Shown here: in pieces, positions 12,471-49,669 of the stretch | Layout of the letters: every line of letters starts with the position of its first letter | Numbering within the stretch: the stretch's first letter is position 1 | From: Dastarcus helophoroides | Taxonomy: Eukaryota; Arthropoda; Insecta; Coleoptera; Bothrideridae | Direction of reading: 5' to 3' | Length of the DNA stretch: 64,000 bases | NCBI GenBank assembly: GCA_028583605.1 | Contig: CM053326.1 | Span: 35,000,931 to 35,064,930, forward strand | Translations under genes and position numbers: made by a program | The notes under the pieces: model-generated | What the model was told of the DNA's origin: nothing | Databases searched by the model: none | Seen by the model: the letters and a program-made list of their open reading frames with translations, nothing else

Positions 12471-12585
12471 TTTTTTAATACTTTATTTTTTTGGTGGAAC
12501 GGACTGGTCCTTGATTATCTTCAAAAATTGAAATACAAATCTTGTTCCCTGAAACTAAGAAAGATTAAAAAACACAACAAAGATT

Positions 12586-12627
12586 GCTCTAACGCGTTTC
12601 GATAGCCAAGCCATCATCTTCAGAGAG
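12586..12627 (-). ncRNA. Hammerhead-ribozyme-like motif, copy 1a
   Basis: Read on minus: stem I CTCT pairs with AGAG, the core is CTGAAGA, and stem II is GATGGC/GCTATC (one G-U pair) with loop TTG. The GAAA that follows leads into the self-complementary ACGCGT, then T at the presumed cleavage position. One extra T sits between the core and stem II. Stem III is a short palindrome, as in hammerheads thought to act as dimers. Confidence 0.65.
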
Positions 12628-12699
12628 ATACTGTCAGCAGATATTAATCCAATTTTAGTAGCTACCTTAGAGATTACGTTTTGTAGACCGGAAAGTTTC

Positions 12700-12739
12700 C
12701 CTGTGAAGATGATAGCTTGGCTATGGAAACGCGTTAGAG
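12700..12739 (+). ncRNA. Decayed hammerhead-like motif, copy 1b
   Basis: This is the same layout on plus, but the core's first C is G (CTGTGAAGA instead of CTCTGAAGA). The closing base of stem II is also changed (CTATGG), so the copy is probably inactive. GAAACGCGTTAGAG is intact. Confidence 0.5.
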
Positions 12740-12795
12740 TAACCTTTGTAGTGTTTTTGAATTTTTCTTTGTTTCAGGGGAATAGATTTATATTT

Positions 12796-13549
12796 AACTT
12801 CATTTTTTAACTACGTATTTTAATTAGAAACTTTGGTAAAAAACGACATTTTTTTTAAAAATCGACAAAAAATGAAGTTTTAGATAAAAACCAAAACATC
12901 AAAAAGAATTCTCAAAATTTCCACAAAAATTACACATTAATTTAAATTCCAAATATTCCCCTAAATGTCGATTATTTTTTTTTTCTTCTAGATTTTGCAT
13001 TAGACCAAATGTTATTGATGTTTTAGGTTTTTCTTAAAAACATTGAAGTGTAGACTTGTTTCCGAAGCTATCTCTTTTTTTTCTCTTCAAATTGCAACCT
13101 TTTATTAATGTTTTGAGTTTAAAGTCGAACAGTCAATAGAGTTTTCTCGTTTATATAACAATAACAATTCCAGAAGTTAAATGTAGTTTCCGGACTTCTT
13201 AGTAGGAAATAGGAAGTGTCCAAAATTTTGAGCAACAATGAACTAACTGTAAATGAACTCCAAGCCAAGCATGAATTACAAAGTTAGTTATTTTGAGGCA
13301 ATATCTCTTTTTTTTAGTCATCAAAAATATGTGGGGGTTTGACGTTTTTTTCTTTTAGTCATCAAAATGTGTAAATACATTTTATTTTACTATGACACTG
13401 GTGGTGTCAAGGTAAATTTTTTGCCCCTAGTTTGGAAAAATCATAACTGCTGATAAATCGATTCGATCAGTGATTTTGTGGGCACTGCCAAAAGTAGACT
13501 TCTTGGGGGTAAAATTGTTGAATTAAATGAGACTGTGGTGAATAAATAT
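12796..13549. other. Non-coding DNA downstream of the CRACD-like gene
   Basis: No gene or recognisable element is visible; the sequence is AT-rich with short T tracts. Confidence 0.4.
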
Positions 13550-13555
13550 TTTATT
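13550..13555 (-). terminator. Poly(A) signal of the CRACD-like gene
   Basis: A canonical AATAAA lies on the minus strand about 370 bp after the stop codon at 13927. It is the first such hexamer in the 3' direction, so 13556-13926 is the probable 3' UTR. Confidence 0.6.
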
Positions 13556-13926
13556 GCATCTGATGAACAACGTAATATCAATTATACATATCCCTAACTT
13601 TGTGTAACATACAACTTACTTAAAAGACGATTTGACCCTATAACAACTTCTCTCAAGCACCATTCTCTCAAGGCATCCTCTAAAACGACACATTCAAAAA
13701 CATTACAATAAAAAGTTAAAAAGGCACTTATGTTTAGCTAACGTATAAAATATAATACATACAGTTATACTTAATGCCAAAGTTAAAATGGCACTAACTA
13801 ATAAAAGAATTCATTTTCATAACTTTAAATACACAACACTTATCAAAAAATATATACATGTTAGCGTTAAATGCAAATCACTCGATTTGGCGCAATTACC
13901 TAATTAACGTACTTATTTACGTCAGT

Positions 13927-16475
13927 TCATGGAGTATTTTTCTTTTGCGCCTCCTGCGCCCGTTTCTCCCATTCGGCCTTCCTCTGATTAAAATTTTTCG
14001 TTTCGATGTCTTCCGAATCAGGTGACGTGCTGATTATCTCGCTGTTACCTTTCTCAACCTCGTCGTTTCTAAGATTGAGGTTCCACTGATCGACTTTCTT
14101 CTTGTCAACAGTTTTGAAAGTCTTCCTATAATTGGAATCGTTGTTTTCAGTAGGCTTTTGAACATTTAGGCTCGCAGCTCTTTGGTAAGCTAATATGGAT
14201 GGTTTCCTCAAGGTAACTTCCGCGGATTCGACAAAGTTCTCAGATTTTTGCTTTATGTTCGATTCCGTCAGCGGTTCTTTTTCCTTTACTTTGTTTTCGG
14301 TTTCTTTAGTGAAAGATTTCTTCCTCAGCGAGTTTTCTTCGGTTTTTAACGATTTGGTGTCTTCGCTTAGAGATTTTCTCTGTTCATCATCTTTAAATAT
14401 CGATTTTTTTCTTTCATTTACAGGCGACTCATGATTTTCTTTATCACTATCTCTCGTTTTATCACATTTTTCTTCCAACATCACAGTTAGTTGTTGACTT
14501 ATCACTTCGGTTTCCGAATCTTTTAATTTAAGGGACCTTCTAGCAAACACTTTCATCAGCTCCGGTTCATCATCTTTTTTCTCTTTAAGCGACTTCTTCC
14601 GAAGAATTACAGGTTCAGTGGTGAAGTTATTGTTTTTTTCTTTGGTAACGCTATTGTCTAAATTGTCCAGACTATCTTGAGATGATGATTTATCGGAGCT
14701 TTCAACCTGCTCGTTTTTTAGGGACTCCAAGCTTATTGTCCTGCTACTGTTTTGCAACGATTTCTCCCTCGTTGGCGAATCGGGAGTTATTGAAACCACC
14801 GATGATTTCCTCGACCCATTTTTCTTAAATCTAGGCTGAGGTGTCACAGGCGATGGTGGCGTTACAGCGGCAACGTTAAGTACTAGCGACGTTTTGAACG
14901 GTACTTCCACGATTTCCTCCGTTGTGTCTTTGTCTACGATTTCAACGTCTTCCGAACTAAATTTTCGTACCGGTTTCGCTTTTTCTTTGTCGGTATCAAA
15001 TTGAAAGGCGCTTTTCGGTCTAGTTTCGCTGTTGACGACCTTTGGGGAGTTGATGGTGGAAAAAATCACATTTGTAGGCGACTTTGCTTCTACTTTGTTC
15101 AGCTGCTTATTTAAAAACTCGGGAATAATCGGTTTCTGAAAACTGTCTTGATTTAAATCGCGTTTAAGTTGCTCTTTGCTCACCGAAATTTCCTTTTCTT
15201 TCACTATAATCTCTTTCGTTCCGTCTTTTTCTATAACTTCTACGTTTCTCTCGACTTGGGTAAGGGGTGAATTCTTATTAAAAACATTCACAACTGCTGT
15301 GTGTTTTGGACCACTAACAGTAACATTATTAACTTCTTCATGGTGTTCCTCTAATAGTTTTTTCTTAGTTTTTTGAAAGTATTCCTCAAATTTCTCCTCA
15401 ATGTTGTCATTTTCAGAAATGTGCATCTCGCATTTTATATCAATAATCTGTTGATTTATCTCCCGAATGTGTTCAATTTTTTTATCGGTTACCCCACATT
15501 TTTCCGTGAACGTCTTTCCATTTGGTTTTTCATCTTCTGTGAGAATTTTGACGCTATCCAAGGAAGCGGCCTTCGCTATAGACTTCCTCTTATCGCCATC
15601 ATTCGAAGCTAAATCCTCGACGCTGCCTTTCGACTCAAAACCCTGCTTAGTAGTTTTAAAACTATGGGACTTGGTGACCAGAGGCGTTCTGCTTGAATCA
15701 CTCGGTAGCTCAATCAGCGACTTGCAGGATTCTTGATCCACTTCATCCTCCCCAAGCGACAAAACGCGTTGTTGTAAACTAGACAGCCCAGCTAATTTTA
15801 TTTTATGTCTCGTTTCCTCATTCTTTTTCACCTCAAAATGCTTAGTTGTGGTTGATTTTGCGAAATGTATTTGTTCGTTTTTGACCACTGGAAGAAATTT
15901 GGGACTCCCCGGAGATTTTTGACTAGGTTCTGAAGCTTCTACATGATGCAGATGTTTAAAACGGTTCTCCAATTCAGCCTGCAGTGGCGAAGAAGACATT
16001 TTTTCGGGCGATTCACCTTCCAAATCCCTCTTAAAGACATCTGGCGACGCTGGGATATCAATTGGTAATACTCTCTGTCTGGAAGCAGCGCCTGATCTTG
16101 GAGCTGCAACAGGCCGGTTCTCCTTTTTCTCAACGGGCTTATTATAATTTATGTCGCTAATGTTGTACTCCATGTCATTCTTTTGATATTTCTCTTCGTT
16201 TTCCGCTTTGGCCTCTGCTTTCTCTTTCTCCTCTTTCATTTTTTTCTTTTTAGCGCTTCTTCTCGGGAATAATCTTTCGAAAAAAGATTTCTCCTCCTTT
16301 GCTTCTTCCTCGAGGGCGTCGTGCGATTTGCTTCCGGCGCTCGATCGCGTGCGACTTAATTTGCTTTCTTCGGAGCCAGGCGGCACTACACCGAGCGGGA
16401 GAGAAGAACATTTTAATTGTGTTTCTGTCTGTTGAGGTCGATGTGTGAGTATGCAAGAAGCGTCTGTTATGATGT
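13927..16475 (-). CDS. CRACD-like (KIAA1211 family) protein, terminal exon
   Basis: This is the last and largest exon, 848 codons plus stop, entered in phase at an ATTGCAG|AC acceptor; the preceding G completes an Asp codon. It is charged and low-complexity, as expected for the disordered part of CRACD/CRACDL proteins, which inhibit actin capping protein. Near exon residues 64-90 is SFFERLFPRR followed by a lysine/glutamate-rich run. Between about residues 550 and 790 there are many basic R-K-x-S sites (RKSSVV, LRKKSLKE, RKKSIFK, QRKSLSE, LRKKSFTK, LRKPSIL), likely kinase or 14-3-3 sites. The C-terminus is EWEKRAQEAQKKNTP. No catalytic domain is seen. The ATG at 16500 lies in the intron and is not the start, because the upstream exons splice in frame. 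Frames on the opposite strand are shadows. Family membership rests on the motif exon at 16733-16851; this exon alone would be unassignable. Confidence 0.88.
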
Positions 16476-16595
16476 CTGCAATTAAAAATACAAAAGCCAT
16501 GCTTAAGTAGCCAAAGTGGATGGATATTTTCAGCTGATAATTGTTATGGCGCGTAAATATGAAATTAGCTGAGATGACAAATTAGTGATACCTAC

Positions 16596-16677
16596 CATTT
16601 TTCAGCTTGTGATCTGGAGATACACCTCTAATAGTTTCTTCATTCACTTCTGGAGTTGTCGGTAATGCATTGGCAAG
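16596..16677 (-). CDS. CRACD-like exon before the terminal exon
   Basis: It encodes LANALPTTPEVNEETIRGVSP then DHKLKN, 27 codons plus one base. It begins after a TTTTAG acceptor and ends at G|GTAGGT. The phase (0 in, 1 out) matches both neighbours. The intron on its 3' side is 120 bp and that on its 5' side 55 bp. In vertebrate family members an acidic stretch follows the capping-protein motif at this place. Confidence 0.88.
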
Positions 16678-16732
16678 CTAAAATCGATTAAACTCATTAT
16701 AGCTGACCAAAAATCTTTCTCAGTACGTTTAC

Positions 16733-16851
16733 CTGTGGTACCCTTTTTCGTCGAGGAGCTCCATGTGTTCTTTTAGGTCTAACAGCTACTTTATGATGTG
16801 CAGCACTGTGATTTAAAGGTGTAGAGCTTCCACTTATATCAAGATCGGATT
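16733..16851 (-). CDS. CRACD-like exon with capping-protein-interaction motif
   Basis: This is the diagnostic exon. It gives ESDLDISGSSTPLNHSAAHH continuing KVAVRPKRTHGAPRRKRVPQ. The run L-N-H-S-A-A-x-H-K-x-A-V-R-P-K followed by a basic RRKR tract corresponds to the capping-protein-interaction (CPI) motif and its SAAKHKLAVKPKK core in human CRACD (KIAA1211). That motif binds the actin capping protein and reduces its activity. Splice sites are TTTTTACAG acceptor and CAG|GTAAAC donor. Phase is 1 in, 0 out. The identification is from recalled family sequence and needs an alignment. Confidence 0.9.
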
Positions 16852-16903
16852 CTGTAAAAAAATTAATTAACTAAAAGGAATAATTCATGCAAAAAAATGT
16901 TAC

Positions 16904-16973
16904 CTTGATCTGTGAATCTTTTATCATGTAATGATAATTTGGATGAATGTCTCGAGTGCTGTCCAAAAGAATC
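16904..16973 (-). CDS. CRACD-like exon, serine/histidine-rich
   Basis: It encodes DSFGQHSRHSSKLSLHDKRF then TDQ, with the last base of the exon starting the Glu codon completed by the next exon. A T-rich TTTTTTTTGCAG acceptor and AAG|GTAACA donor frame it. The 52-bp intron to the next exon is near the minimum size. It enters in phase 0 and would splice to the exon 6.8 kb upstream at 23779-23847. Confidence 0.85.
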
Positions 16974-17242
16974 CTGCAAAAAAAAAAGAATTTGTGAGCC
17001 TAAGTAAAAGAAATCTTCACAAAAATTTTATTCTGAAAATTTGCAATTCGTTTAAAATGTTTATTAAATAGAATTTGTTACAATTCACAGCGCCAATTGT
17101 CAAGATATGGAAAATTACAACCAAAAATCAATAACGACTTTTATAATTTCTATTACTTGGCAGTTTGTTATCAACTGACCAAAAGCCTTTGCTTTCTTTT
17201 GTATTAGTAAATGTACATTTAAATCGTTGAGATGCGTTAGGG
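16974..17242 (-). other. Start of the 6.8-kb intron
   Basis: This is intron of the CRACD-like gene. No element is recognised before the hAT-like end at 17243. Confidence 0.5.
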
Positions 17243-17400
17243 CAGCGGTTTTTAATTCTTTTTGGCTCTGGGGCTGGTATCATTGGTGAAAAAATTTCAT
17301 GAGACGAAAAACTTGCGAAAAAATTGCACGAACAATCTAACGAAACGAAAATAAGGCAATAAAATAACAAATATTTAATTACAAAAAAAAACAGCCGCAA
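17243..17400 (+). mobile_element. hAT-like terminal fragment
   Basis: CAGCGGTTTTTAATTCTTTT followed by TGGCTCTGGGGC closely resembles the terminal repeat of Charlie/Tip100-type hAT elements (CAGnGGTTCTCAA...TTTTTGG). Only this end is seen, and the following LINE remnant begins soon after, so it is a truncated copy. Confidence 0.5.
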
Positions 17401-17468
17401 GCCAGTGGCCGGCCGCCCTTAAATAAATTAGAATTAAAATATGCATTTTTAATGACATTTACAATACA

Positions 17469-18895
17469 GGGAACATCCCAAAAGAATGGCTCACCTCGGA
17501 ATTTATAATGTTACCAAAGAAACAGGCAGCCAAAGCATGTGGTGACTATAGAACAATTAGTCTTATGAGTCACATGTTAAAGCTGTTCCTTAAGTTTATT
17601 CATCGAATAAGATTATTATAAGATTATTCACAGAATCTGCGAAGAAAGTGTCAAACGCACAATTTGGTTTTATGAAAGGCATGGAGTACGAGAGATGCAG
17701 TTTTCTGTCTGCAAGTACTATTCCAGCGCTCCAGAGATATGAACTGTGACATTTTTGCATGTTTTGTCGAATTACCAGAAGGCGTTCGATAGAATAAAGC
17801 ACGAAAAGATGATAGAGGTCTTGAGGAATACGTGGATGGATGACAAAGATCTGAGGATCATCTGAAATCTTTACTGGAATCAGACAGCTACTATTAAAGG
17901 AAGAGCAAACTAATGCAATTACCATTCTTCGAGCAGTTAGGCAGGGATGTATTCTTTCGCCATTTATATTTAATTCTTTACTTCAGAGGAACTCTTTTAG
18001 AGAGGCCCTTGAGAATACCGATATAGGAATCCTGCTAAATGGTGAACGAATAAATAACATCCGATACGCGAATGATACTGTGGTTTTCACTGACAACCTA
18101 AACAACTTGAAAGAGCTAATGAACAAAATAAAAGATGTTAGCAGTAACTAAGGCTTAGAAATTAACAGTAGTAAAACCAAATTCATGGTAATTAGTAAAG
18201 TAAGGAGTGGAACATACGACCTAATGGTCAACAACACACAAATAGAGAGTTTCACAGCTCACCTACCTGGGAACCATGATCAATCTCGTTAGGAGTACTC
18301 ACGGGAGATCAGGTGCAGAATGGAGAAAGCAAGGACTGCCTTTAACTAAATGACTAAATTGTTTGACAGTCACTACCTCAAGATCGACATCAGAATTAGA
18401 CTCCTCCAATGCTATATTTTCTCGGGATTTTCTATGGAATGGAGTCATGGACATTAACCGAGGCAACACAAAGAAGACTGGAGGCCTTCTAAATGTGGCT
18501 TTACAGAAGGATGTTAACAATTTCATGGGTGGAAAGTGTGACCAGTAAGGACAGTGATGGAGAGAATGAAGAAGAACTTAGAAATAATGAACATCATCAA
18601 GAGAAGACAACTCGAGTACCTCGGACATATTATGAGGAACGAAACCAAGTATCGCCTACTAACGTCGGTTCTCCAAGGGAAAGTTTATGGCGAAAGAAAA
18701 CCAGGAAGAAGGAGAATATCATGGCTTAAAAACTTGAGAACGTGGTTCTCAAAAACTACTACCGAATTATTCAAAAGCAGACGTGAACAAAGTCATCATA
18801 TCCAGGATGTGCGCCAATATTCGGAACGAATAGCACTCGAAAAAGAAGAAAAGAAACAACACCTTTACTTTGGGCATTATGCAATAAGAAACTGA
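17469..18895 (+). pseudogene. LINE reverse transcriptase remnant
   Basis: Frames disrupted by several stops and shifts spell a non-LTR reverse transcriptase. The order is GDYRTISL, then FGFMKG, then IRYANDTVVFTDNLNNLKEL (the catalytic YADD box changed to YAND), then GLEINSSKTKFMVIS. The C-terminal stretch is intact from 18554 (RRQLEYLGHIMRNE, GERKPGRRRISWLKNLRTWF), a hallmark of an abundant insect LINE class. The copy is dead: the catalytic box is changed and stops are frequent. It is sense on plus, opposite to the host gene. The endonuclease part is missing. Confidence 0.85.
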
Positions 18896-18959
18896 TATTT
18901 TACCTTAAAATTAAGATGTAGTTTACTTTATTTTCTAGATGATACATGGACGATCAGTT

Positions 18960-21850
18960 AAAATTTCGAAACTGAAATTAGAATTTCAAGATTACATGCG
19001 ACATTTATAAAAGATCCAGATTTTTAATTTTATAGTCAAAATGTCAAGAAAAGAACTTGCACACCACGATCGTCGGTCGGTTTTAGGTACTTTCGAAATT
19101 TCAACTTTAACCTCACGGTTTTATTTTCACTTTTGACTTTAACCTCATGTATTCCAATTTTATGTCGAAACCTCAAAATTTGTAGAAATAGATGAATATT
19201 CGAGAGAAAAGTTACAATGTTGATAATAATACTCGAAATGAGTTTTTTTTAACAAATTTGGTTTCTTACAAATTTTAACTATTTTCTTTCTATTTCTGAA
19301 TTAAAATTTCATTTTTTTTTTTTTGAAGACTGACCGAAACTAGATTTTGGCCTAAACCGAAACTGAATTTAGGCTTCTACTCTGATTTTGGCTGAAAACG
19401 AAACCAAAAGTATACACGTACAATTAAAACAAAACAGTAAGAAGCAGTATCAACTTAAATGTTTGGATATTACTTTTTACTTTTACTACTAAATTACCTA
19501 CTTTAAGCTTTAAATTAAACTTGCATTTTTAAAAGTTTTTGAAGAGTTTAAAAATTTCGAAAGAAAAGGCAGCCAACATCTCAGATTTGAAGTACCGATA
19601 CCGAGTTTAGAAAAAGTAAATCAAACAAAAACGTTTTTAAAACTTCCACTGTTTTAAAAAAATTTAAGGTTTCGGGGGAAATTTTCATCTTCAACTTTAA
19701 AATTTTCCTTTTCTAGAAGCTTCTCAACAAAAAGTCGTAATTTTATTAGAATTTTAAGTTATCTTATTTATAAAAATTTCGTGTTAAACGCAGAATTTCA
19801 TTTATGTAAATTATAAGTCTTGCGAAATGTGAAGTTTTTTCTCGAAATATAGTGTTAAAGCACGCGTACGAGCATGAAATTTGACACAGGTGTTTCCCAC
19901 AATACGCAGGTGAGCACTGAGAAAGGATTGTTCAAAATTCAGTCTCTAAGGTGGTATTTAAAGCTGTCTATACGCGTTGAGGGTTAACGTTGTTGATGAA
20001 TGTGTCTCCTGACGAAGTTATCCAAATTTTTAATCAGAGTTCTTTTTTTTTTAATATAAACTTCGAAACATCTAAGTTTTGAACCCGAAATTTTGGCTTT
20101 AATTTGGTTTTAATTTTAAATTTAAATATCACGTAGTCATAGTTCAGAAACTGTTTTAGAACATTATCAACAAACAATAAAAATTTAAATATTTTCAAAC
20201 TGGGCCGAAAAAATGTTAAATAAAATTAATAAACATAAAATTTAATTTGGCACTTCCGATGTTTAACTTGAAATGTTGAGGAATATTTGTTTGTAGAAAT
20301 TTTGAATTTTTTTCTCGATATTTCGATGTTTCCAAGTTTTGCCTTTGAATTCAAAATTTCGAGAAAGTGTTTTGTAGAAATTTTTAATTATAGCCAAAAT
20401 ATTGCTTTGTGCTCTTTTTTTCAAAATTCCTATCCATATTTTCTTTTAAAACTTTTCCGTTGAAACTTGAAAATACAATTCGTTCAAAATTTTAAAAATT
20501 TGAAATTTAGAAAGTCAGATTCTTCAAAAAATAATGAACAAATAAATAAAATTTTCAAAAATAAGTGAATTTTTCAAAAATAAGTGAATTTTTCAAAAAT
20601 TCAAATCTTCGAGAAAAAGGTCAATATTCTCTAAAAGTTTTCAAATAGTCAAAGTTATTACAAAATATCGAAGTTTTGAAAAAAGTTTAAAATCCGAAAA
20701 TAGTTATAACTTTCAGAAAAATTTAAAATTTAATTATAAAATCTCACAATTTTTTTTAAAAGTGAAAATTTTCAAAATTAAGTTGAATATTTCAAAGTAC
20801 AGTTTATTACATAAAAGTCGAAGCATCGAGGAAAAAGTCGAAATGTTTGATAAAAAGTTTTGACTTTTTTCTAGTTTTTCTTTCTTTTTTTCTCTACTTC
20901 GAGGAAATAGTCAAAAGTTTGAAGAAAAGTGGAAATGTTTAAAAACGTGGATATTTTGGAAAACTGTAGAAGCTTTCAAAAAAACAATACTTCAACATAA
21001 TCACATTTTTAAAAAATCAAAATTTTGAAAAAACTGAAAAAAGATGAAAATTTTGTGTGAACATTTTCTAAAAATTCGAAAAATCCTGAATCTTAAAGAG
21101 AAGTGAAATTGTGGAAGGATTGAAATTCACAAAGTAAATTTAAATTGAGAAAAAATGAAAATTAAAAAAAAATGGAAAACTGAAAATTCGGATTTTTCAA
21201 AATATAAAGTAGAAATATTTTTCAAAAATATCATCATTTTCAACAAAAAGTGAAAATTTTAAGGAAAAGTGGAATTTTTTAATAAAAAAAGTTGAATTAA
21301 AAAAATCAAACATTTCAAATGAGTCATAAGTCATAAAATTAAAATTTTCATAAAGAATTCAAATGCTTTTAAAAAATCGAATTCGAAAGCAGTCAACGAT
21401 TAAATTACGGGTCGATCGAAATTTTGAAAAAGGTCCGAAATTTCTAAAAATAAGGTCGAGAATGTGCAAGTCAAAATTGGTCCAAAAACTCAAAACTTCA
21501 AAATAAAGTCAAAATACTTAAGAAAAATTGAAACATTAAAAACGAAATTTTCAAAAAGTTGAAATTTCCAAAAAAAGATATTTTTTATAAAGACGGAAAT
21601 GATCAAAAAAGTTTCCGAAAAAAATCAAAACATCGTACAATATTATACAGAAAAAGCCAGAATTTTAAAGGAATTGGAATTTTCAAAAAAAAGTCAAAAC
21701 TTCGAAATTTTCAAAATTAAGTCAACGTTTCGAGAAAAAGTTGCAATGTTGGGAGTCGAACGAGAAAATGCGAACATTTTGAAAAGAGCTGATATTTTAA
21801 AATGTCAACATTATCAAAATTATTGGAAATTTTCAGTAAAATGAATTCTT
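18960..21850. repeat. Diverged satellite-like array with strand switch
   Basis: This is intronic DNA made of degenerate copies of the AAATTTCGAC-type repeat. It is T-rich or mixed on plus up to about 20450 and clearly A-rich (AAAAAGTCGAAATTTT) from about 20500 to 21850. A patch of repeated ACCGAAACTnnATTT.GG motifs lies at 19326-19410. GC-richer GGGTTGGGTCAAAACCGGAG lies at 21893-21912, perhaps an element end. Lysine-rich reading frames here are repeat translations. Confidence 0.6.
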
Positions 21851-22182: not shown

Positions 22183-23319
22183 TTATTCAACATAGTTGCC
22201 TTCGAGGGCGATACAACGAGTATAGCGATTTTCCAACTTTTCGATACCACTTTTATAGTATGATTTCTCTTTCTCGTCAAAATAGGCCTCAGTTTCAGCG
22301 ATTACTTCATCATTGGACTTAAATTTCTTTTCAACAAGCATTCTCTTAAGATCTGAAAAAGAAAAAGTCGCTGGGGGCTAAATCTGGAGAATACGGTGGG
22401 TGGGTAAGCAATTCGAAGCTAAATTCATTCAATTTTGCCACCGTTTTCACCGATTTGTGACACAGTGCATTGTCTTGGTGAAACAACACTTTTTTCTTTT
22501 GCAAATGTGGCCGTTTCTTTGAGATTTCAGCCTTCAATCGATCCAAAAGTGCACAGTAATAGTCGCTGTTGATGGTGGTTCCTTTTTGGAGATAGTCGAT
22601 GAATATTATTCCGTTCGCATCCCAAAATACAGAAGCCATCACCTTAACGATCAACTGTTGCATCTTTGCTCGCTTTGGATTCGGTTCGTCGACTGCTGTC
22701 CACTCAGCTGACCAAAATACAGAAGCCATCACCTTACCGGCCGACTATTGCGTCTTTGGTCGCTTTGGATTTGCTTCGTCGACTGCTGTCCACTCAGCTG
22801 ACTGTCTTTTGGATTCTGGTGTGTAATAGTGAAGCCAAGTCTCATCCATTGTCACATGTCGACGATAGAATTCCATTTTATTGTGGTTTAACTGCGCCAA
22901 ACAATCCTCTGAAGCATCCATTCGTTGCTGTTTTTGGTCGACTGTGAGCTCTCGCGGCATCCACTTTGCACAGAGCTTTCGCATACACAAATGTTCGTGT
23001 CAAATGGTAAAAACACTACCATCTGATATCTTTACAATGTCAGCTAGCTCGTGCACCTTCAATTTGTGATCATTCATAACCAATTTGTGGATTTTTTTTT
23101 GATGTTTTCTGTAATAACAGCCTCATTTGGGCGTCCACTGCGCTCTGCATCATTTGTGCTGGTAGGACCACGTTTAAATTCAGCAATCCACTTCTCTACC
23201 ATTTGTCTCGATGGAGCAGAATTCGGATAATGTTTATCAAGCCATTGTTTGGATTCCACTGTATTTTTTTTCATCAAAAAGCAATGCTTTATCAAAACTC
23301 AAAATTCACTGTTTTCCAT
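22183..23319 (-). pseudogene. Mariner transposase remnant, copy A
   Basis: This is a mariner-type cut-and-paste transposase gene read on minus from the ATG at 23319. An N-terminal helix-turn-helix part (VEKWIAEFKRG, RSGRPNEAV) is followed by a DDE domain with TMDETWLHYYTPES, FHQDNALCH and SPDLAPSDFF, the D, D and D34 positions of the family. It is inactive. Codon 7 is TGA (23301-23299). A one-base insertion lies in the A run near 23090 and a one-base deletion in the T run near 22350. A 90-bp in-frame duplication (22622-22801) repeats the stretch from SAEWTAVDE to KVMASVFW. The reading frame ends GNYVE. Confidence 0.9.
22622..22801. repeat. 90-bp tandem duplication inside mariner copy A
   Basis: Units 22622-22711 and 22712-22801 both begin CCAAAATACAGAAGCCATCA and end CCACTCAGCTGA. 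They differ at a number of positions (for example AACGATCAACTGTTGCATC versus CCGGCCGACTATTGCGTC), which is more than a recent slippage event would leave. Confidence 0.9.
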
Positions 23320-28419: not shown

Positions 28420-28427
28420 AAACTGAG

Positions 28428-37583: not shown

Positions 37584-38852
37584 ACAGTCCATAGGATGAC
37601 ACATAGATGGCGTTACTAGAATTTTTCCATATGATTTTTATTTAGTACTAACCTTCAAACGATATGTGTATAAATTTGATAGCAATCTGACTATTGATTC
37701 GTGAGTTATAGCATTTTGTGTGAAGGAACTTTTGTTATTGAAAAAAAAAATGGAAAAAAGTGAATTTCGAGTTTTGATAAAGCATTGCTTTTTGATGAAA
37801 AAAATACAGTGGAAACCAAACAATGGCTTGATAAACATTATCCGAACTCTGCTCCATCGAGACAAATGGTAGAGAAGTGGATTGCTGAATTTAAACGTGG
37901 TCGTATCAGCACAAATGATGCAGAGCGCAGTGGACGCCCAAATGAGGCTGTTATTCCAGAAATCCACAATTGGTTAAGAACGATCGCAAATTGAAGGTGC
38001 ACGAGCTAGCTGACATTGTAAAGATATCAGATGGTAGTGTTTTTACCATTTTACACGAACATTTGGGTATGCGAAAGCTCTGTGCAAAGTGGCTGCCGCG
38101 TGAGCTCACAGTCGACCAAAAACAACAACGAATCGATGCTTCAGAGGAGTGTTTGGCGCTGTTAAACCGCAATAAAATGGAATTCTATCGTCGATATGTG
38201 ACAATGGATGAGACATGGCTTCACTATTACACGCCAGAATCCAAAAGACAGTCAGCTGAGTGGACAGCAGTCGACGAACCGAATCCAAAGCGAGCAAAGG
38301 CGCAACAGTCGGCCGGTAAGGTGATGGTTTCTGTATTTTGGGATGTGAACGGAATAATATTCATCGACTATCTCCAAAAAGGAACCACCATCAACAGCGA
38401 CTATTACTATGCACTTTTGGGCCGATTGAAGGCGAAATCGCAAAGAAACGGCCACATTTGCATAAGAAAAAAGTGTTGTTTTACCAAGACAATGCACCGT
38501 GTCACAAATCGATGAAAACGATGACAAAATTGAATGAATTGGGCTTCGAATTGCTTACCCACCCACCGTATTCTCCAGATTTAGCCCCCAGCAACTTTTT
38601 CCTGTTTTCAGATCTCAAGAGAATGCTTGTTGGAAAAAAATTTAAGTCCAATGATGAAGTAATCGCTGAAACTGAGGCCTATTTTGACGAGAAAGAGAAA
38701 TCGTACTATAAAAGTGGTATCGAAAAGTTGGAAAATCGCTATACTCGTTGTATCGCCCTCGAAGGCAACTGGCTCGAATAATAAAATCGAGTTTTGTCAA
38801 AATTTTGTTTTTTTCTTACTTATTTATCCTACGGACTTATTGAATGACCTGG
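37584..38852 (+). mobile_element. Mariner element, copy B
   Basis: It is flanked by TA (37582-37583 and 38853-38854). It begins ACAGTCCATAGGATGACACA and ends TTATTGAATGACCTGG, matching copy A in reverse orientation. At 1269 bp it is near full length. Relative to copy A it lacks the internal 90-bp duplication. Confidence 0.92.
37750..38781 (+). pseudogene. Mariner transposase remnant, copy B
   Basis: The gene starts at ATG 37750 (MEKSEFRVLIKHCF) and ends GNWLE at 38781. It carries the N-terminal helix-turn-helix region and a DDE domain with TMDETWLHYYTPES and FYQDNAPCH. The third catalytic position reads APSNFF: AAC at 38593-38595 replaces the expected Asp codon. Frameshifts lie in the A run near 37800, around 37962-37972 (where about four codons are also missing compared with copy A), and near 38432. 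The copy cannot make an active enzyme. Confidence 0.9.
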
Positions 38853-38949
38853 TAGGCTTTGATATTTTGTGTTATAAGATACAAAAATTAAATAATTTAA
38901 TCGAAATTTTGAAATAATTGCTACATATGTGTTGACAATTCTGCTTTAA

Positions 38950-39125
38950 AAATTGACATACAAATCTTGTCCCCTGAAACCTCTGAAGATGGTAGTTTGG
39001 CTATCGAAACGCGTTAGAGCAACCTCTTGTGTTTTTTAATCTTTCTTGGTTTTAGGGGACAAGATTTGTTTTTCAGTTTTTGAAGATAACCAAAGACCAT
39101 CCCGTTCCACAAAAAAAAAAATTAG
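38950..39125 (+). mobile_element. Hammerhead-bearing short element, copy 2
   Basis: The copy is flanked by an 11-bp direct repeat, TTCTGCTTTAA, at 38939-38949 and 39126-39136. From the left it has CAAATCTTGTCCCCTGAAAC, the hammerhead core, GTGTTTTTTAATCTTTC, the inverted TTTAGGGGACAAGATTTG and CCCGTTCCAC. It closes with a run of eleven A. The A tail and variable-length duplication point to retrotransposition. Confidence 0.8.
38981..39019 (+). ncRNA. Hammerhead-ribozyme-like motif, copy 2
   Basis: Core CTGAAGA; stem II GGTAGT/GCTATC, with two G-U pairs and loop TTG; then GAAACGCGTT and AGAG. Stem I is shortened to about two pairs because the CTCTCT tract is reduced. Confidence 0.6.
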
Positions 39126-39136
39126 TTCTGCTTTAA

Positions 39137-41628: not shown

Positions 41629-42906
41629 GGAATTGGAATTAGTTTTAAAGGTTTTTTTTCCGAAATTTGAGGCTTTATTGAGCAAAAATGGTTACAAATC
41701 GATTATTCAAAATATTGTCCATCGCTAGCAACTACTTTTTTCCATCTTTCTGTCAATTTTCGGATACTAGCTCGGAAGAACAGTTCGTCTTTTGATGCGA
41801 TCCATGCGATCCATTTTTTCGTTTCCGAGTAAGAGGTTAAGTGCTGCTCAGCCAAGCCATGTGCTATCGATCGGAACAAGTAGTAATCGGACGGGGCAAT
41901 ATCTGGGGAATACGGCGGGTGCGGTAGAACATCCCATTTCAACGTTTCCAAGTACTTTTTGACGGGTTTTGCGACATGAGGACGAGCGTTGTCATGTGGC
42001 AAAATGACTTTGTCGTGCCGCTGCTCGAATTGCGGCCGTTTTTCCTTCAATACCCGGCTCAAATGCATCAATTGTGTTCGGTAGAGGTCCCCGGTGATGG
42101 TTTCGTTCGGTTTGAGCAGCTCATAATAAATGACGCCCAGCTGATCCCACCAAATACAGAGCATGAGCTTGGATCCATGGATATTCGGTCTTGGCGTTGA
42201 TGACGATGTGTGGCCGGGGTATCCATACGATTTTTTACGTTTGGGGTTATCGTAATGGATCCACTTTTCATCGCCAGTAACGATGCGATGCAAAAAACCT
42301 TTCCTTTTTTAACGCGCGAGCAGCTGTTTGCAGGTTATAAGCCGCCTCTCCACGTCTCTCGCCTTCAGCTCGTATGGCACCCAATTTCCTTGCTTCTGAA
42401 TCATACCCATGGCTTTGAGACGTTTGCCGACTGTTGGCAAGCCAACTCCCAATGATACGGACCATTCTTGGAGCGTTTGACACGGATGTTCGTCGAGTAA
42501 CGCCTCCAATTCTTCGTCTTCAAACTTTTTCGGCTGACCGGGACGTTCCTTGTCATCGGTGTCAAAATCACCACTTTTGAAACGTCGAAACCAGTACTCA
42601 CATGTCGAAATCGATGGAGTACAACCCCGGTAAGCTTCCTCGAGCAGTAAAGGACTCGCAGCAGCAGTTTTCTTCAAATGGAAGCAGAACAATAAAGCTT
42701 CCCGCAAATTACGTTTATTCGGCACGAAAGTTGACATATTGAATGGTCTTGGAATGTATGTTGTTTACACTTGCGCAAGATGACACATACTAACAATCCA
42801 AACTATAATATAGTGCTTTGGCGCGAATATAGTTTTGGAGTGCCCACATGCAACATACGTTTACAACGCCATCTCTTAGAAAACCTTTAAAACTAATTCC
42901 AGCTCC
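41629..42906 (-). mobile_element. Mos1-like mariner, nearly intact
   Basis: It is flanked by TA (41627-41628 and 42907-42908). Ends are GGAATTGGAATTAGTTTTAA on the left and the complement of GGAGCTGGAATTAGTTTTAA on the right, with identity continuing into AAGGTTTT. The length of 1278 bp is normal for a full mariner, and the structure is complete. Confidence 0.95.
41703..42737 (-). pseudogene. Mos1-like transposase with one nonsense codon
   Basis: This is an almost complete mauritiana-subfamily mariner transposase of 344 codons, against 345 in Mos1. It runs from ATG 42737 (MSTFVPNKRN) to IRKLTERWKKVVASDGQYFE at 41703. It shows FCFHLKKTAA, the WVPYEL and YSPDIAPSDYYLF motifs typical of mariner, and catalytic Asp in VTGDEKW, LPHDNARPH and APSDYY with D34D spacing. 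The only lesion I find is an in-frame TAA at 42311-42309, where Mos1 has Tyr. The frame is the same on both sides. The histidine before DNARPH and the WWDQ.GVIYYELL segment are present. Confidence 0.93.
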
Positions 42907-42908
42907 TA

Positions 42909-43460
42909 TATTAACAAAAAATTTCCAATACAGAGGAAAAGGTATTGTTTCTTTTATTTCATTAACATTTTCAATGGAAGAAAGTTGTCTAAATGGAAAA
43001 AATAAAAATTAGAAATTGTGCTTTTGGTTTTTTTTACTTTGCTTTTGCTTGTAGAATTGAAGTTTTTATGAACAATTTGTTTGCTGAAAACTGTAGACTA
43101 GAGAGGCTAAATATTAGGGTTTTTAATCAAACTTATTTTACTAGATATTTTCATTGTTAGATCATTCTTCCAGAAATCTAATTTTTTTTCATTTTTTTTT
43201 TCATTTCTTTTTCGCTATTACAGCGATTGCGTTAAATCTCTCAGTACAGTTTTGAAGAAAAAGACTAACAAAATTATAATTTTGGCACCCTACTTCTTGG
43301 CTTATTAATCATTATCAATCTAAGGTAATTAATTTCGGTTATATTTTTATCCCAGGAATCTTCCAGGACCTCTGTGTATCCAACATATTAGAATATATCT
43401 TGTGCGTGCGGTTTTTAAGTAATGTCTACTAGACAATTCTAAACTCTCGAAAACGATGAC
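42909..43460. other. Intronic DNA
   Basis: No gene or element is recognised. Confidence 0.4.
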
Positions 43461-44268
43461 TTATTCAGTATAGAATGCAGATACAGACGACAAAATCGGG
43501 ATCTCGAGATTATTCTGGAGTGGGGTAAGAACAATTTGGTCGAATTCAACGCTTCAAAAACTCAGGTCGCGGTTTTCTCTAAGAAAACATCAAGGGATAA
43601 TGCAACAAACATACTAATGGATGGTAAAATCCTTCCGATGGGATCGAATCTATCTATCCTAGGAGTGAATGCGAGCACTAACTTCTATTGGGACGATCAT
43701 GTGGGCGCCATTGCTAAATCCGCCTCAGAAGCTAGGCTTTCTTTTTAGAGCTAAAAAGTACTTCATATCTCATCAGCTACTTACACTATACAAAGCTTAA
43801 GTTAGGCCAACACTAGAATACTGTTCTCATGTTTGGAGTTCAGCCCCAAAACACACTTTAGCTCTCTTGGATTCAATTCAAAGAAGAGCGATTCGCCCAA
43901 TTGATGACGAGACTCTGACCGATTCTCTCGAAATACTAGAGCACAGGCGTATGGTTGGTGACTTGTCTCTTTTCTACAAGTACTATCATGGAAAATGCTC
44001 GCGGGAACTAATAGGATTGATCCCTCCAAGGACAAGATTCTTGAGGCATATTAGACAGTCGGAGACAGCAAATTTCTGTGCGGTCCAGCTTGACACAGTG
44101 AGAACTTGTGTCTACGGAGACCCTTTTTTCTGCAGAACTTCCAAGTTATGGAACTTGTTACCGAAAGGAATCTTCCTCAAAAAGTACAACCTATCCTTGT
44201 TTAAGAAGGCGGTCCATCGCCATCTATCCTTGTTTCCGCATCCTACTCGCAGTGCTTTGAAAGCATAA
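43461..44268 (+). pseudogene. LINE C-terminal reverse transcriptase remnant
   Basis: This is the 3' part of a non-LTR retrotransposon protein. It gives LEWGKNNLVEFNASKTQVAV (thumb region), ILGVNASTNFYWDDHV, RPTLEYCSHVWSSAPKHTLA, LLDSIQRRAIRPIDDETLTD and the C-terminal SLFYKYYHGKCSRELIGLIP, ending at 44268. A one- or two-base shift near 43720-43745 and a TAA replacing a Gln-type codon near 43800 break it. It is in the jockey-like class judged by the RPxLEY and LDxIQ motifs. The 5' end including the catalytic YADD box is missing, as in 5'-truncated LINE insertions. Confidence 0.85.
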
Positions 44269-44389
44269 TGGAATTACCCTTTGCAAGTGGATTAAATTTT
44301 AAAAAAATCTATCAACTTATTTAACCTTTAAAATTAGGTTTGTCAACCTTTAGGGACGGAAAGGTGGGGGTTAAGAATTACATGTTTAA

Positions 44390-45800
44390 ATGGTAATTGA
44401 AAAACAAGAATTTGTACGCAAATTTCTAATTTTTTACCTTCAAGTTATGAGGAAAAGAGTACGAGAGTATCAATTTTTATTGAAAATTTCGATTTTATCA
44501 AAATTTCGACTTTTTGAAAATTTCGACATTTTTAAAAATTTAGACCACAAAATTCAGTCTTTTTTTAAAATTTTACCGAAACTTTTCCTGTTTTTTAAAA
44601 ATTTTTACTTTTTCAATATTATATTTTTTCCGGTAATTTCGACTTTTTGAAAGTAAGTTAAAAATTTCGACTTCTCTTTAAAATTTGAATTTTTTTGAAA
44701 AAATTCGACTTTTCTGAGTTTGGATCTTTTTTGAAAAATTGGAAATCGTTAAAATTTTGATTTTTTTTGCAGAATTTAAAATTTGACCTAGTAAGATGTA
44801 TTTTTCTTTTTTCTTCTTGGAAAATTTCGCACTTTTTGAGTATTTTGACATTTTTGAAAATTTAGACCAAAAAATTGGACACTTTTTTCGAAAATTTAGA
44901 CTCTTTCTAGAAATTCTATATGAAAAGTAGCACTACAACTTTTTTTTTGAAAATTTCATTTGTTTCTAGAATATTTCCTCATAAAATTTTGACTATTTCT
45001 GTTGAAATGTCTACTTTTTGCCGACATTTCAACTTTTTCTGGAATTTCGACTCCTCTTCAAATTTTGAATTTTCTTTAAAAAATTCCACTTTTCTAAATT
45101 TAGACCTTTTTTGAAGAATTGGAATTCCGTTGAAAAATTGATTTTGTTTGCAAAATTTAAAATTTAACTTTGCAAGTTGCATTTCTCTTTTTTTTTTCTT
45201 CTTGAAACATTTCGAACTGTTTGAGTATTTTGACATTTTAGAAAATGTGAATCAAAAAATTTCTCGAAAAATAAATTCATTTTTTCTTAAAATTTTGATT
45301 TTTTTAATAGTTGAAGTTTTGAGTAAAATTTCAAAGAAATTTATTTTTGCTTAATTTCCGTTTTGTGATTAAAATGTTTTTTTTTATTCTTTACGATAAA
45401 TTTTAAGTGTTTTAATTGACTATTTTCTCACAATTCTAAGTTTATCTTAAAATGTTTAAATGATTTTGTTTAGTTTTAATTAGAAATGTTGAGAAAAGGT
45501 CCAAATTTAGAGGAAAGTCAAAAAATTTGAAAATAGTCCCAATCAGTCAAAACTTGGCAAAAATCAACCAGAACAATAATAAAAAATAAAATAGGCTGAA
45601 ATTTGAACTTTTTGATTTCTTTAAGATGAATCCGAACTTAAAATTTGTGGTTTTGTGCCAAATATCTAAGATTAAACTTAAAATTTTTAATTTTTCCCCA
45701 ACATTTTGAATTTAAAATAGAAACTTTCGACTTTTTTCTAGAAATATTAACTTTATTTTGAAATTCCGAGTTTAATTCGATATTTCGATTACTCGGAACA
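44390..45800. repeat. Diverged satellite-like array, T-rich on plus
   Basis: Degenerate AAATTTCGACTTTTT copies. Within it a segment of about 300 bp appears twice in diverged form, near 44640-44900 and 45040-45260 (shared ACTTTTCT.A.TTT and TTCTTCTTG tracts). Confidence 0.6.
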
Positions 45801-46092
45801 TGAAAAAATGAGTATCACATTTTGAATGCATTACAGTTGAAAGTACAATTGTAATTTTACTCTTTCTTTTAATGTGGCTTGATCTTGAAATAAAATTGTA
45901 TAAATAATTGATGTTTCAAACTCAAAAATCATGGCACACTTGATTGATGACTTTTTCAATTGAATCCCCGTATTTAGGAAGCTTCAACTAAGGAAGATTT
46001 AAAAAGTTCCTCAATGTTTACTTTCCAATAACTTCAATAAAGTTGCCTCTAATGCATTCCGTACAGTAATATAAGACAAACATCAAACTTAC

Positions 46093-46224
46093 TTTGTTTG
46101 CAGTCTTGTCGAGTATATTGTCGGTTGTGGTAGGAGAATTGCAGGGACTATGTGGAAGACCTTCATCATCTTCACTGGTATCTCCTCTGCCACGCCTCAG
46201 TCTCAGCCTCTCACTAAGTTCTGT
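46093..46224 (-). CDS. CRACD-like internal exon
   Basis: The 132-nt exon is in phase 0 at both ends. It encodes TELSERLRLRRGRGDTSEDD, then EGLPHSPCNSPTTTDNILDK, then TANK. The acceptor TTTGCAG and donor AAA|GTAAGT are strong. The NILDK element corresponds in position to the conserved N-terminal DNILGK region of vertebrate CRACD proteins. It is isolated between introns of about 22 and 16.5 kb. Confidence 0.88.
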
Positions 46225-47185
46225 CTGCAAACAAAGTTAAAACCTTTTAGCAAATTACGTCAATTAGAAAAAAAAAATACGAGCATTATGATTCATCGCA
46301 TTCGTCTAACGTCTAGTACATTTGTTAATCTGACACAGGATAGCTCTTATCTGGCTTCGCGTTATATAAGGTTAGAAATATTTATGTTGTGACCAAAATA
46401 TCAACAAAGTAGGACGCACATCCCTTTTTGTATAAAATCATTGATAAGTTGGGCGTAATGCATTCATGACGCAAAACGTCACTACAGAAACCACTTGAAT
46501 TATTAACTCACCCAAACTCTTCGCAAAATATTCATGGTTGACTAGCTAAAATATCACACGTCACTTTGAATGGCTTCACGGGACAAATTTCAAAACACCA
46601 ACACTTTCATTACGCTAACAAAAGAAGTAGTTTCATAAATTAAAACATAAGCCACTATACATTTAAAGAGCTATTTACAGTAAATCAGTTTTTAATGGTC
46701 AGATGCACTGTACGACATTAAATTAGTAGTCTTTCAAGGAATACTAGATTTTAAATTATGCGATAAATGGCCACAAACCGCCGCTAAGTTGTTAGGGGAA
46801 ATGACTGGTTTATGATTAATTGAAGTTCGGAGCAGGAAAATCAACAAAAAATGTATGTAAACTTATGACAAATTACGCACGATAAGACCGATTTAAATTC
46901 CATCTTATCTGGGTGCTGTTAATTTATCGATTGTTTGTTTATGATATTGTTTTTGATTTAAATTCATTCATTTAACAACAAAAGATAATCATTCTGAAAT
47001 TATAAACGCAAACGAACCAATCATGCGTGAAATTTGAAGAGGTCGCTGCAAACAGTTTTACAATTTTATTGCCCAAAATGCCCTGATAAATAGAATGATT
47101 AGTAGAGAAAAACTTGTAACCAAACGTAATAATAATACTTAAATTTACAACTTCGATTGTAAATTCGGTAACTGAAAAATATTTT
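46225..47185. other. Unique intron upstream of the 46.1-kb exon
   Basis: No element is recognised. The sequence is less repetitive than its neighbours. Confidence 0.4.
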
Positions 47186-47201
47186 TTTCAATATAAATTA
47201 G

Positions 47202-47354
47202 TGTGGTCCTTGGTTATTTTCAAAAACTGAAATACAAATCTTGTCCCCTGAAGGAGTATCTCTCTGAAGATGATAGTTTAGCTATCGAAACGCGTTAGAG
47301 CAACCTCTGTTGTGTTTTTTAATCTTGCTTGGTTTCAGGAGACAAGATTTGTAT
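47202..47354 (+). mobile_element. Hammerhead-bearing short element, copy 3
   Basis: It begins GTGGTCCTTGG, a truncated form of the GGTGGAACGGACTGGTCC end, and stops within the right arm near TTTGTATTTCA. The sequence TTTCAATATAAATTAG is found on both sides (47186-47201 and 47354-47369). Part of it overlaps the element's own TTTCAA, so the true target duplication is 10-16 bp. Confidence 0.8.
47260..47300 (+). ncRNA. Hammerhead-ribozyme-like motif, copy 3
   Basis: Stem I CTCT/AGAG; core CTGAAGA; an extra T; stem II GATAGT/GCTATC with a terminal G-U and loop TTA; GAAACGCGTT. All hammerhead core positions are retained. Confidence 0.7.
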
Positions 47355-47505
47355 TTCAATATAAATTAGGTTTTTTTGTTCAGAAACTTCGACTTTTATT
47401 ATCAAAAATTTGTTTTCTATTCTTACTTTTTTCCTAAATGTTCGATCCTAAATTCATAATTTCGTTTTTTTTTTATCTAAAAATGTTGTATTGATTTTCA
47501 AATTA

Positions 47506-47779
47506 CAGTGGAATTCCGCCAAAGTTGCGTTCACCGTACTGGATCGACCATTAAAGTTGCTTCTCCCTGTAAGCCCTACCATTGTCGAAAAATATATATG
47601 TTTTATTGTTCCTTGCGCGGTTGAGTGGGTTATTCAAAAGTGGCGCTAAAACTCGGAAGTCCAATTCGTTGTTCGAAAATTAGAGTGGGAGAATATCCGC
47701 GCAACTTTAACGATGGTATCCTGCCAACGTTAACGAGCGTGCAACTTTAACGGCGCGCAACTTTAGCGGGAGTCGACTG
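47506..47779. mobile_element. Pogo/Tigger-like MITE
   Basis: TA-flanked 274-bp element (47504-47505 and 47780-47781). The left end CAGTGGAATTCCGCCAAAGT and inverted right end CAGTCGACTCCCGCTAAAGT resemble the CAGT.GA.TCC ends of pogo/Tigger transposons. The interior repeats an AAAGTTGC or GCAACTTTAAC motif several times, especially near the right end. No coding capacity. Confidence 0.82.
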
Positions 47780-48793
47780 TACTTTTATTTTTTTTTTTAT
47801 ATAAATTATTAGCCTTTCCACAATCACGAGTTTGCACTTCCAACGGTTATTTCTTTATAAAATTTTAAATACGAATTTGTTATTACATTTTATAATCCAA
47901 TAATTCGACAACTTTTCCAAATTTCTCGAAACTCTCATCGATTTTTTTTTAAATGTCCAGTTGAAAGTGTAAATCATGGCTTCCCAACCTGTGAGACCCC
48001 CCAATTAGGACACATTCTGAATTTTTTGTAAATGTTGGTTTTTGAAAAGTTGGATTTTTCCAAAATTTCGATTTTTTTCATAATTTTGTTTTTTCTAAAA
48101 TTTCTGCCTTTCAAAATTAATTTTTATTTATTTCGAGATAATTAAAAAAATTCTGATATCGATTTTTTTTTTAATTCAACTTCGAAAATTGCAACTCTTT
48201 ATAAGTTTTGATTTTTAAACCTTCAGTTTTTTTTGAAAATGTGCAGAATTTTGCGAGGTTGAAATTTTTTCACAATTTTATTTCAGAATTAGGTGGTTTC
48301 TTTTTTCAAAAACCTGGACTTTCTTAAAATTGTCGACTTTTTTTCTTAAAAATGCGACTTTTCCAATATTTTTACTTTTCTAAACTTTCAACTTTTTTGA
48401 AAGGTTTTTTAAACTTTCAACTTTTTTAAAAGGTTTTCTAAACTTTTAACTTTTTGAAAAGATAAACCTTTTAAAAAATTTCGATTTTTTTCGAAAATCT
48501 AGAAATTCCGATTATTTTCGAAAATTTTCACTTTTTTAAAAATCTCAACTTTATTGATAATTTTAACATTTTCTTCAATATTTCAATTGTTTTTATAAAT
48601 ATTACACATTTTTCAAAATTTTATTTATTTTTTTTATATTTCGGCTTTAAAATTTAGACTTTTTTCAAGTTTCAACATTTTTCAAAACTTCGAATTTCTT
48701 TGAAAGTCTTAACTTTGCAAAATTTCAATTTTTTTTCCAAATGACTTTCAAAAAAATATTCACCTTTTTTTACAAATTTCGATTTGTTTCAAA

Positions 48794-49166
48794 GCTCGAT
48801 ATTTCTTTTTGATTATTTTTCGAAGTTTCTACTTTTTTTTGGAAATCTTTACTTTTTTTTGAAATCTTTACATTTTTTGAAAACTTTAAATATTTATTAA
48901 AATTACATTTTCCAAAATTTTAACTTTAAAATTTCGACTCTTTAAAATTTTTGTCACTTTTATTCAAATTTTCGAAAATATTATAATTTTAAAAAATAGG
49001 TAAATTTGAATAAAAGTGACGAAAATTTTAAAAATAGAGTAGAAATTTTAAATTAAAAATTTTGGAAAATGTCAAAATTTTAATAAATATTTAAAATGTT
49101 CAAAGAAAACAGATTTTCAAAAAAAAAGTAGAAACTTCGAAAAATAGTCAAAAAAAAATATTGAGC
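48794..49166. repeat. Large palindrome, arms about 165-178 bp
   Basis: The arm 48794-48971 is the inverse complement of 49002-49166 with scattered differences; the spacer is 30 bp. Shared landmarks include ATTTTTCGAAGTTTCTAC, AAATATTTATTAAAATT and GTCACTTTTATTCAAAT. It could fold into a long hairpin. Confidence 0.85.
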
Positions 49167-49501
49167 ATTTCTCCAAATTTTTAAATTATTTTGAAACTTT
49201 TCTTATTTAAAGTTTCGAACGAATTGTTTTTAAATTTGCTCCTTTTACTGACTTTTTGATTTTTTTTTAAATCGTGCCTTTTGTGCAAAATTTCACCTTT
49301 TTTTTAGTTTTTTGACGTTTTACAAATCTTCTACTTTTTAAAATTATAAATATTTTTGTGAAAATTCAGATTTTTTTGGACATTTTAACACAGTATTAAA
49401 AATTCGGCATTTCTCAAGATGTTACTCTAAAATTTTTATTTTGTTCACATTTTCGCCTCTTTTTTGAGAATTTTGCTTTTTTCAAAAATTTTGAGTTTTT
49501 T

Positions 49502-49669
49502 GAAATACAGGAACCTGTCCCCTGAAACCAAGAAAGATTAAAAAACACAACAAACGTGGCTCTAACGCGTTTCGACAGCCAAGCTGTCATCTTCAGAGAG
49601 ATACTGGTTTCAGGGGACAAGTTCTGTATTTCAATTTTTGAAGATAACCAAGGACCAGTCCGTTCCACC
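49502..49669 (-). mobile_element. Hammerhead-bearing short element, copy 4
   Basis: Read on minus it starts GGTGGAACGGACTGGTCC, runs through ACTTGTCCCCTGAAACCAGT, the hammerhead core, GTGTTTTTTAATCTTTC and TTTCAGGGGACAGG, and ends TGTATTTCA. The 5' end is complete, while the 3' arm is truncated. It lies inside the satellite array. Confidence 0.8.
49560..49600 (-). ncRNA. Hammerhead-ribozyme-like motif, copy 4
   Basis: Stem I CTCT/AGAG; core CTGAAGA; stem II GACAGC/GCTGTC, loop TTG; then GAAACGCGTT. Relative to the other copies both partners of one stem II pair have changed (T-A to C-G), keeping the helix. Confidence 0.72.

Follow-up and report, generated by a model that had tools for sequence, protein, structure and literature searches.

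What are the short hammerhead-like motifs that recur along one stretch of the genome of the beetle Dastarcus helophoroides, and in what kind of element do they travel? The stretch analysed here, referred to as the window (64,000 nucleotides of assembly GCA_028583605.1, contig CM053326.1, positions 35,000,931 to 35,064,930; 31% GC), carries five such cores in four elements, which the original prediction had described as a dispersed hammerhead-ribozyme family with covarying stem II, naming Penelope-like elements (PLEs) among its possible hosts. A dispersed family with a hammerhead-like core is indeed present, and the architecture of its copies, together with the plan of a second family nearby, supports PLEs as the hosts. 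We consider it very probable that the cores are the hammerheads found where the pseudo-long terminal repeat (pLTR) of a PLE meets the start of its open reading frame (ORF), and that each of the four elements is a short PLE insertion, truncated at its 5' end and made up mostly of the end piece; priming on both target strands and cleavage of the parent RNA would be the putative parts of this history.

Hammerhead cores in head-to-head arms

The five cores lie as follows, in coordinates of the window:

12587..12627, minus strand: core c1 of the 12-kb insertion, CTGAAGA intact
12699..12739, plus strand: core c2 of the 12-kb insertion, C3 changed to G and one stem II mismatch
38979..39019, plus strand: hammerhead core of the 39-kb insertion
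47260..47300, plus strand: hammerhead core of the 47-kb insertion
49560..49600, minus strand: hammerhead core of the 49-kb insertion, carrying a two-sided stem II change

Exact matches to GAAACGCGTT at 12591 (-), 12726 (+), 39006 (+), 47287 (+) and 49564 (-) confirm all five at the places predicted for them. AGAG follows directly in every core and CTGAAGA stands upstream in four, c2 reading GTGAAGA with core base C3 altered. This substitution is also the only departure from the order CUGANGA, stem II, GAAA, UH triplet and stem I, to which the other four cores conform. The stem II sequences quoted by the original prediction (GATGGC/GCTATC, GGTAGT/GCTATC, GATAGT/GCTATC and, in the 49.5-kb copy, GACAGC/GCTGTC) are correct; that of c2, which had not been quoted, is GATAGC/GCTATG with one G-G mismatch. 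Over the five cores 29 of 30 stem II cells are paired (96.7%), as are 85% of the stem I cells. A single unpaired base (T in this family, A in the second family described below) separates A9 from stem II, and stem III amounts to three self-complementary pairs (ACGCGT) without a loop, the triplet being GUU. The five cores are minimal type I hammerhead motifs in which stem III is almost absent, and the bases invariant across copies take in nearly the whole hammerhead core.

Taken alone, GAAACGCGTT with up to one mismatch occurs in the window at chance level (6 observed, five of them exact, and 4.7 expected). The core pattern, defined as CTGANGA, a stem II of at least four pairs and GAAAC, was scanned with 60 first-order resamplings as the null and gave 6 matches in the window, while the resampled sequences averaged 0.03 and never held more than 1; the pattern was chosen after the copies had been seen, and the 6 matches represent two families and hence non-independent events. 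A control scan of viral contigs for the core returned 27 stretches, which we take to be chance matches because none of them has a four-pair stem II. The family's stem II pattern had no match in contigs of prokaryote genomes, a collection without animals that carries little weight here.

An ATG starts on hammerhead position A9, so that the cores overlap a putative start codon, with TGAAG-ATG in all five. In the reference the frame from this ATG is open through all 41 codons of the tail, and the ATG may represent the start of the parent element's ORF. An in-arm stop breaks the frame in three copies, namely c1 of the 12-kb insertion, the 47-kb copy and, following a 2-nt gap, the 39-kb copy; c2 and the 49-kb copy have no in-arm stop, the latter with a 1-nt insertion.

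The original prediction had overlooked the setting of the cores, which sit in head-to-head inverted arms with unequal ends and flanking repeats. All four insertions consist of two arms of one end piece of about 131 nt, running in opposite directions with their tails outward. Arm ends were measured on a 131-nt reference:

12493..12795: 12-kb insertion, two head-to-head arms (84% complementary) with a hammerhead core in each; ends at 131 (long) and 93 (short)
38950..39125: 39-kb insertion, truncated arm, hammerhead arm and about 15 nt of A-rich filler; ends at 130 (long) and 105 (99 if the overlapping repeat is counted as target)
47202..47355: 47-kb insertion, truncated long arm and hammerhead arm with the short end; ends at 119 and 97
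49500..49669: 49-kb insertion, hammerhead arm with the short end and truncated long arm; ends at 131 and 96

One long and one short outer end is thus found in each of the four. The insertions are bounded by direct repeats of 11-14 bp, whose scores were compared with those of 4000 random flank pairs:

12480..12491: left flanking repeat of the 12-kb insertion, ACTTTATTTTTT; partner ACTTCATTTTTT at 12797-12808, 11 of 12 bases alike; score reached in 3.7% of random pairs
38939..38949: flanking repeat of the 39-kb insertion, TTCTGCTTTAA; repeated exactly at 39126-39136; its score, taken over 9 of the 11 bases, is reached in 3.7% of random pairs
47188..47201: target duplication of the 47-kb insertion, TCAATATAAATTAG; exact partner at 47356-47369; extended 16-bp match in 0 of 4000 random pairs
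49493..49505: flanking repeat of the 49-kb insertion, GAGTTTTTTGAAA; partner GAGTTTGTTGAAA at 49679-49691, 12 of 13 bases alike; 1.8% of random pairs

The real flank pairs score 9, 9, 10 and 16, and the largest score among 20 cross pairs, of which the 8 involving the second family are invalid, is 8. Among these repeats, that of the 47-kb insertion is strong and the other three are modest. BLAST of the elements within the window returned only short AT-rich matches and no further locus of the family.

A second family with the same plan

At 3 kb from the first family lies a second one, absent from the original prediction and built on the same plan, which we call PLE2:

52584..53505, minus strand: PLE2, inverted hammerhead ends flanking an endonuclease-like ORF fragment
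52584..52701, minus strand: long arm, 118 nt; core begins at 52701
53420..53505, plus strand: short inverted arm, 86 nt; core begins at 53420
52931..53419, minus strand: ORF fragment with GIY-YIG relatives, reverse transcriptase (RT) part absent
52571..52583: target duplication, exact 13-mer; partner at 53506-53518

Both cores, at 52701 (-) and 53420 (+), read CTGAAGA-A-GCCC/GGGC-GAAAC, and the mutually inverted arms differ by five substitutions and one gap over 87 aligned columns. The ends lie 100 and 68 nt from the putative ATG, again one long and one short, 32 nt apart. The target duplication is strong, an exact 13-mer being common to only 122 of 200,000 random 36-nt pairs. The ORF fragment has 37 homologues, the best named match being an uncharacterized protein of the bee Megachile (52%). 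One homologue, from a cockroach (37%), is named GIY-YIG, and five of the 37 contain PF01541, which we take to be the GIY-YIG domain; when the 202-aa ORF was itself scanned against Pfam, no family reached E 0.001. An ORF combining RT and GIY-YIG is found in none of the four truncated insertions, and PLE2 has the fragment with GIY-YIG relatives but no RT part.

PLEs may have inverted pLTRs of which one carries a tail of some 30-40 nt; in keeping with this, all five insertions, PLE2 included, have inverted arms with one long and one short outer end, the difference being 22-38 nt. If ends were drawn independently and evenly, five mixed pairs out of five would arise in about 3 in 100 cases by hand arithmetic, copies of the same family possibly being non-independent.

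Adjacent to PLE2 and in its orientation, the stretch 53559-55913 contains ORFs whose domains include a zinc knuckle and RT-associated RNase H, probably the remains of an LTR retrotransposon that has been damaged; within it is a 33-bp tandem repeat (55626-55836).

Proposed origin of the insertions and putative activity of the motif

As a tentative explanation of the unequal ends, we propose that the insertions record simultaneous target-primed reverse transcription on both strands, with the outer start used on one strand and the inner start on the other. The PLE enzyme would cut both target strands a few bases apart, and each cut end would prime reverse transcription internally on the RNA of the element, using either of two start sites that lie about 35 nt from each other. 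Once the inner ends of the two cDNAs had been joined, the product would be a back-to-back palindrome with a short duplication around it and one long and one short outer end. That all five insertions consistently have one end of each kind agrees with priming of reverse transcription on the two strands of the target. Components of such a process have been described for PAc, the Poseidon-type PLE of Anolis carolinensis, in which reverse transcription begins inside the ORF, at 111-118 nt, the known 30-40 bp tail is delimited by two start sites, and both strands of the target are cut and extended by the protein in vitro (PMC11167929). The changes A84T and T86C are common to both arms of the 49-kb insertion and absent from the other six arms, as expected if both arms were copied from one RNA, although conversion between the arms would have the same effect; the 12-, 39- and 47-kb insertions have no private changes common to both arms.

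If true, two-strand priming would explain why inverted PLE ends are frequent and why only one of them carries the tail, replacing the self-priming on an antisense template that the available text of the rotifer study proposes (PMC3846280). The available text of the PAc study uses the word "inverted" once, for inverted dT (PMC11167929), and a literature search, with most subscription journals outside it, recognised no other study that derives inverted PLE ends from two-sided priming. We infer this origin from the copies described here, and its novelty is uncertain. The consistent long-plus-short ends suggest a simple genome-wide test of PLE insertion mode.

Several observations weigh against this reading of the copies as a whole, from PLE descent to two-sided priming. 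All three truncated arms end at nearly one inner position, reference 67-71 (sites 38981, 47252 and 49605), and independent truncation does not predict a single stop position, so the shared stop argues against independent events. A cryptic 3' splice site was considered as the cause of the inner break and rejected, as by eye it mismatches the break position. In PAc, top and bottom strands are alike in start site, which speaks against a fixed assignment of one site to each strand, while one of each per insertion stays compatible (PMC11167929). Filler stands between the long end and the repeat at 39 kb (about 15 nt, A-rich, 39111-39125) and at 49 kb (about 9 nt, 49670-49678), and the three modest repeats lie in AT-rich, repeat-rich DNA. 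Within the window no PLE coding sequence is joined to the four-insertion family, whose parent is therefore inferred.

The covariance models and the predicted folds weigh on the same side. Rfam gave no match at its gathering thresholds and no hammerhead family among the 10 and 9 matches at E <=10, in searches made with no positive control for the models, and the PLE2 cores were likewise unmatched by the hammerhead models. The original prediction had named such an outcome as speaking against itself; in our view it is not decisive, since the available text of two studies reports that helix III is missing from PLE hammerheads (PMC6155905; PMC7761336). The miRNA-like Rfam matches (MIR9563, MIR9486, MIR868 and mir-551) were set aside, as they fall on the long inverted-arm hairpin and under their own gathering scores. 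Folds were predicted for five whole-insertion transcripts, either unconstrained or constrained to the hammerhead with stem III left unpaired. Optimal and constrained energies were -127.7 and -71.8 kcal/mol for the 12-kb minus-strand transcript, -132.1 and -72.5 for its plus-strand counterpart, -67.3 and -42.8 at 39 kb, -55.6 and -44.9 at 47 kb, and -68.3 and -61.2 at 49 kb. The hammerhead is thus the lowest-energy fold in none of the five, and forcing it costs about 7 to 60 kcal/mol. Stem II has a probability of 0.0 in the 12-kb transcripts of both strands and is predicted in the 39-, 47- and 49-kb transcripts with pair probabilities of 0.87-1.0.

Cleavage of the parent RNA by the hammerhead would be expected at the junction of GUU and AGAG, most likely in a dimer or aided by protein because stem III consists of three pairs without a loop. 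The original prediction had based selection on RNA structure on the conserved core together with covariation in stem II. The two-sided change it singled out (T-A to C-G in the 49.5-kb copy) is real and the only one among the five copies, but 94 of 500 column shuffles of the five sequences equal it; the change does not amount to significant covariation, and five copies are too few to carry a claim of structural selection. Together with the folds, the loss of C3 in one copy and the Anolis hammerhead, which is dispensable for insertion in vitro and cleaves only with added protein (PMC11167929), this agrees with the motif being a functionless fossil whose core has been kept by recent common descent only, the ribozyme being inactive in copies and parent alike. 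For the present copies as such, lack of function is likely. Its extension to the parent appears doubtful to us: nearly the whole core is among the invariant bases, both families in the window share their layout with the Anolis element, and with protein present the Anolis motif is able to cleave (PMC11167929).

The shared inner stop of the truncated arms and the nearly identical inner junctions of the 47- and 49-kb copies would be accommodated if the whole palindrome were a non-autonomous mobile unit, that is, an old PLE foldback insertion that is now transcribed and copied whole by PLE enzymes. We regard this as unlikely, since truncation has affected the short-ended arm at 39 kb but the long-ended arm at 47 and 49 kb, both arms of the 12-kb copy contain a hammerhead, and private changes are common to the two arms of the 49-kb copy.

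Two further candidates are very improbable. Inverted arms, small size and flanking repeats recall a miniature inverted-repeat transposable element, a cut-and-paste DNA element with the motif incidental in its terminal inverted repeats, but this is largely refuted by the two ends of every insertion stopping at different places, as well as by arms truncated to differing lengths, repeats that vary between 11 and 14 bp, and the recurrence of the plan in a second family with an endonuclease-like ORF. An animal retrozyme, a small non-autonomous element moving as circular RNA from paired hammerheads, would share the unit size, the type I hammerhead and the low GC content, and PLEs have been suggested as its mobilising enzyme, but the available text on animal non-LTR retrozymes, small non-coding units like those here, describes direct tandem units with mostly canonical hammerheads (PMC7229834), whereas our copies are inverted and the 105 tandem-repeat rows in the window include no tandem array of the unit (direct units of about 150-450 bp).

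Neighbouring features and comparison with known elements

Elsewhere in the window, of 7993 candidates scored against the long ORF at 13927-16581 (-), 65 are homologues, the best coming from Asbolus verrucosus (44%); the named organisms are, we presume, all beetles except one cockroach. An exon of a RING-finger protein lies on the minus strand at 7946-8407. Mariner-type transposase remnants occupy 41703-42764 and 37946-38781 (with Pfam matches for 41703-42764 and 37946-38515), and a further one at 22346-22744, recognised by likeness only, is overlapped by a 90-bp tandem duplication at 22622-22802. The ORF at 43801-44268 has no Pfam match and presumably resembles the terminal part of a polyprotein from a non-LTR retrotransposon. 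The whole window abounds in AT-rich repeats in loose tandem order, each about 18-20 bp long and built on the theme AAATTTCGACTTTTTTCTC, and they are densest at 11087-12379.

Dispersed hammerhead motifs in animal genomes are readily mistaken for new ribozyme elements. In this single 64-kb stretch, two families can be traced to PLE ends through their architecture with the full element absent. We found no literature combining Penelope, the hammerhead ribozyme and Coleoptera. According to the available text of PMC7761336, minimal type I hammerheads number in the thousands in many metazoan genomes; most are dispersed, some lie in PLE pLTRs, and they may cleave as dimers. Compared by description, as far as the available texts go, the published PLE hammerheads (PMC7761336, PMC6155905, PMC6466107) resemble those found here in being minimal type I motifs with a nearly absent stem III, dispersed and located in pLTRs; the self-complementary three-pair stem III (ACGCGT) with GUU may set the present family apart.

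At the level of the motif, a close likeness is to the Anolis PLE RNA, as printed in the available text of PMC11167929. There, too, the start codon stands on A9 (ctgaggATG, with the cut 26 bp beyond the start codon), and by our own reading one unpaired base separates A9 from stem II; that reading also gives two stem III pairs and a GUC triplet, in contrast to three pairs and GUU here. The tail of PAc is bounded by two reverse-transcription start sites, and the ends of the copies described here fall about 90 and 125 nt into the frame. PAc forms tandem copies with a full ORF, whereas the four-insertion family is reduced to inverted end pieces without one (PMC11167929). At the level of architecture, the Penelope copies of the rotifer Adineta vaga come close, sharing head-to-head inverted pLTRs with a tail on one of them (31 bp in the rotifer, whose pLTR takes in the first ORF codons) and short duplications, of 8-10 bp there and 11-14 bp in the copies reduced to end pieces here; the available text of that study makes no mention of a hammerhead (PMC3846280).

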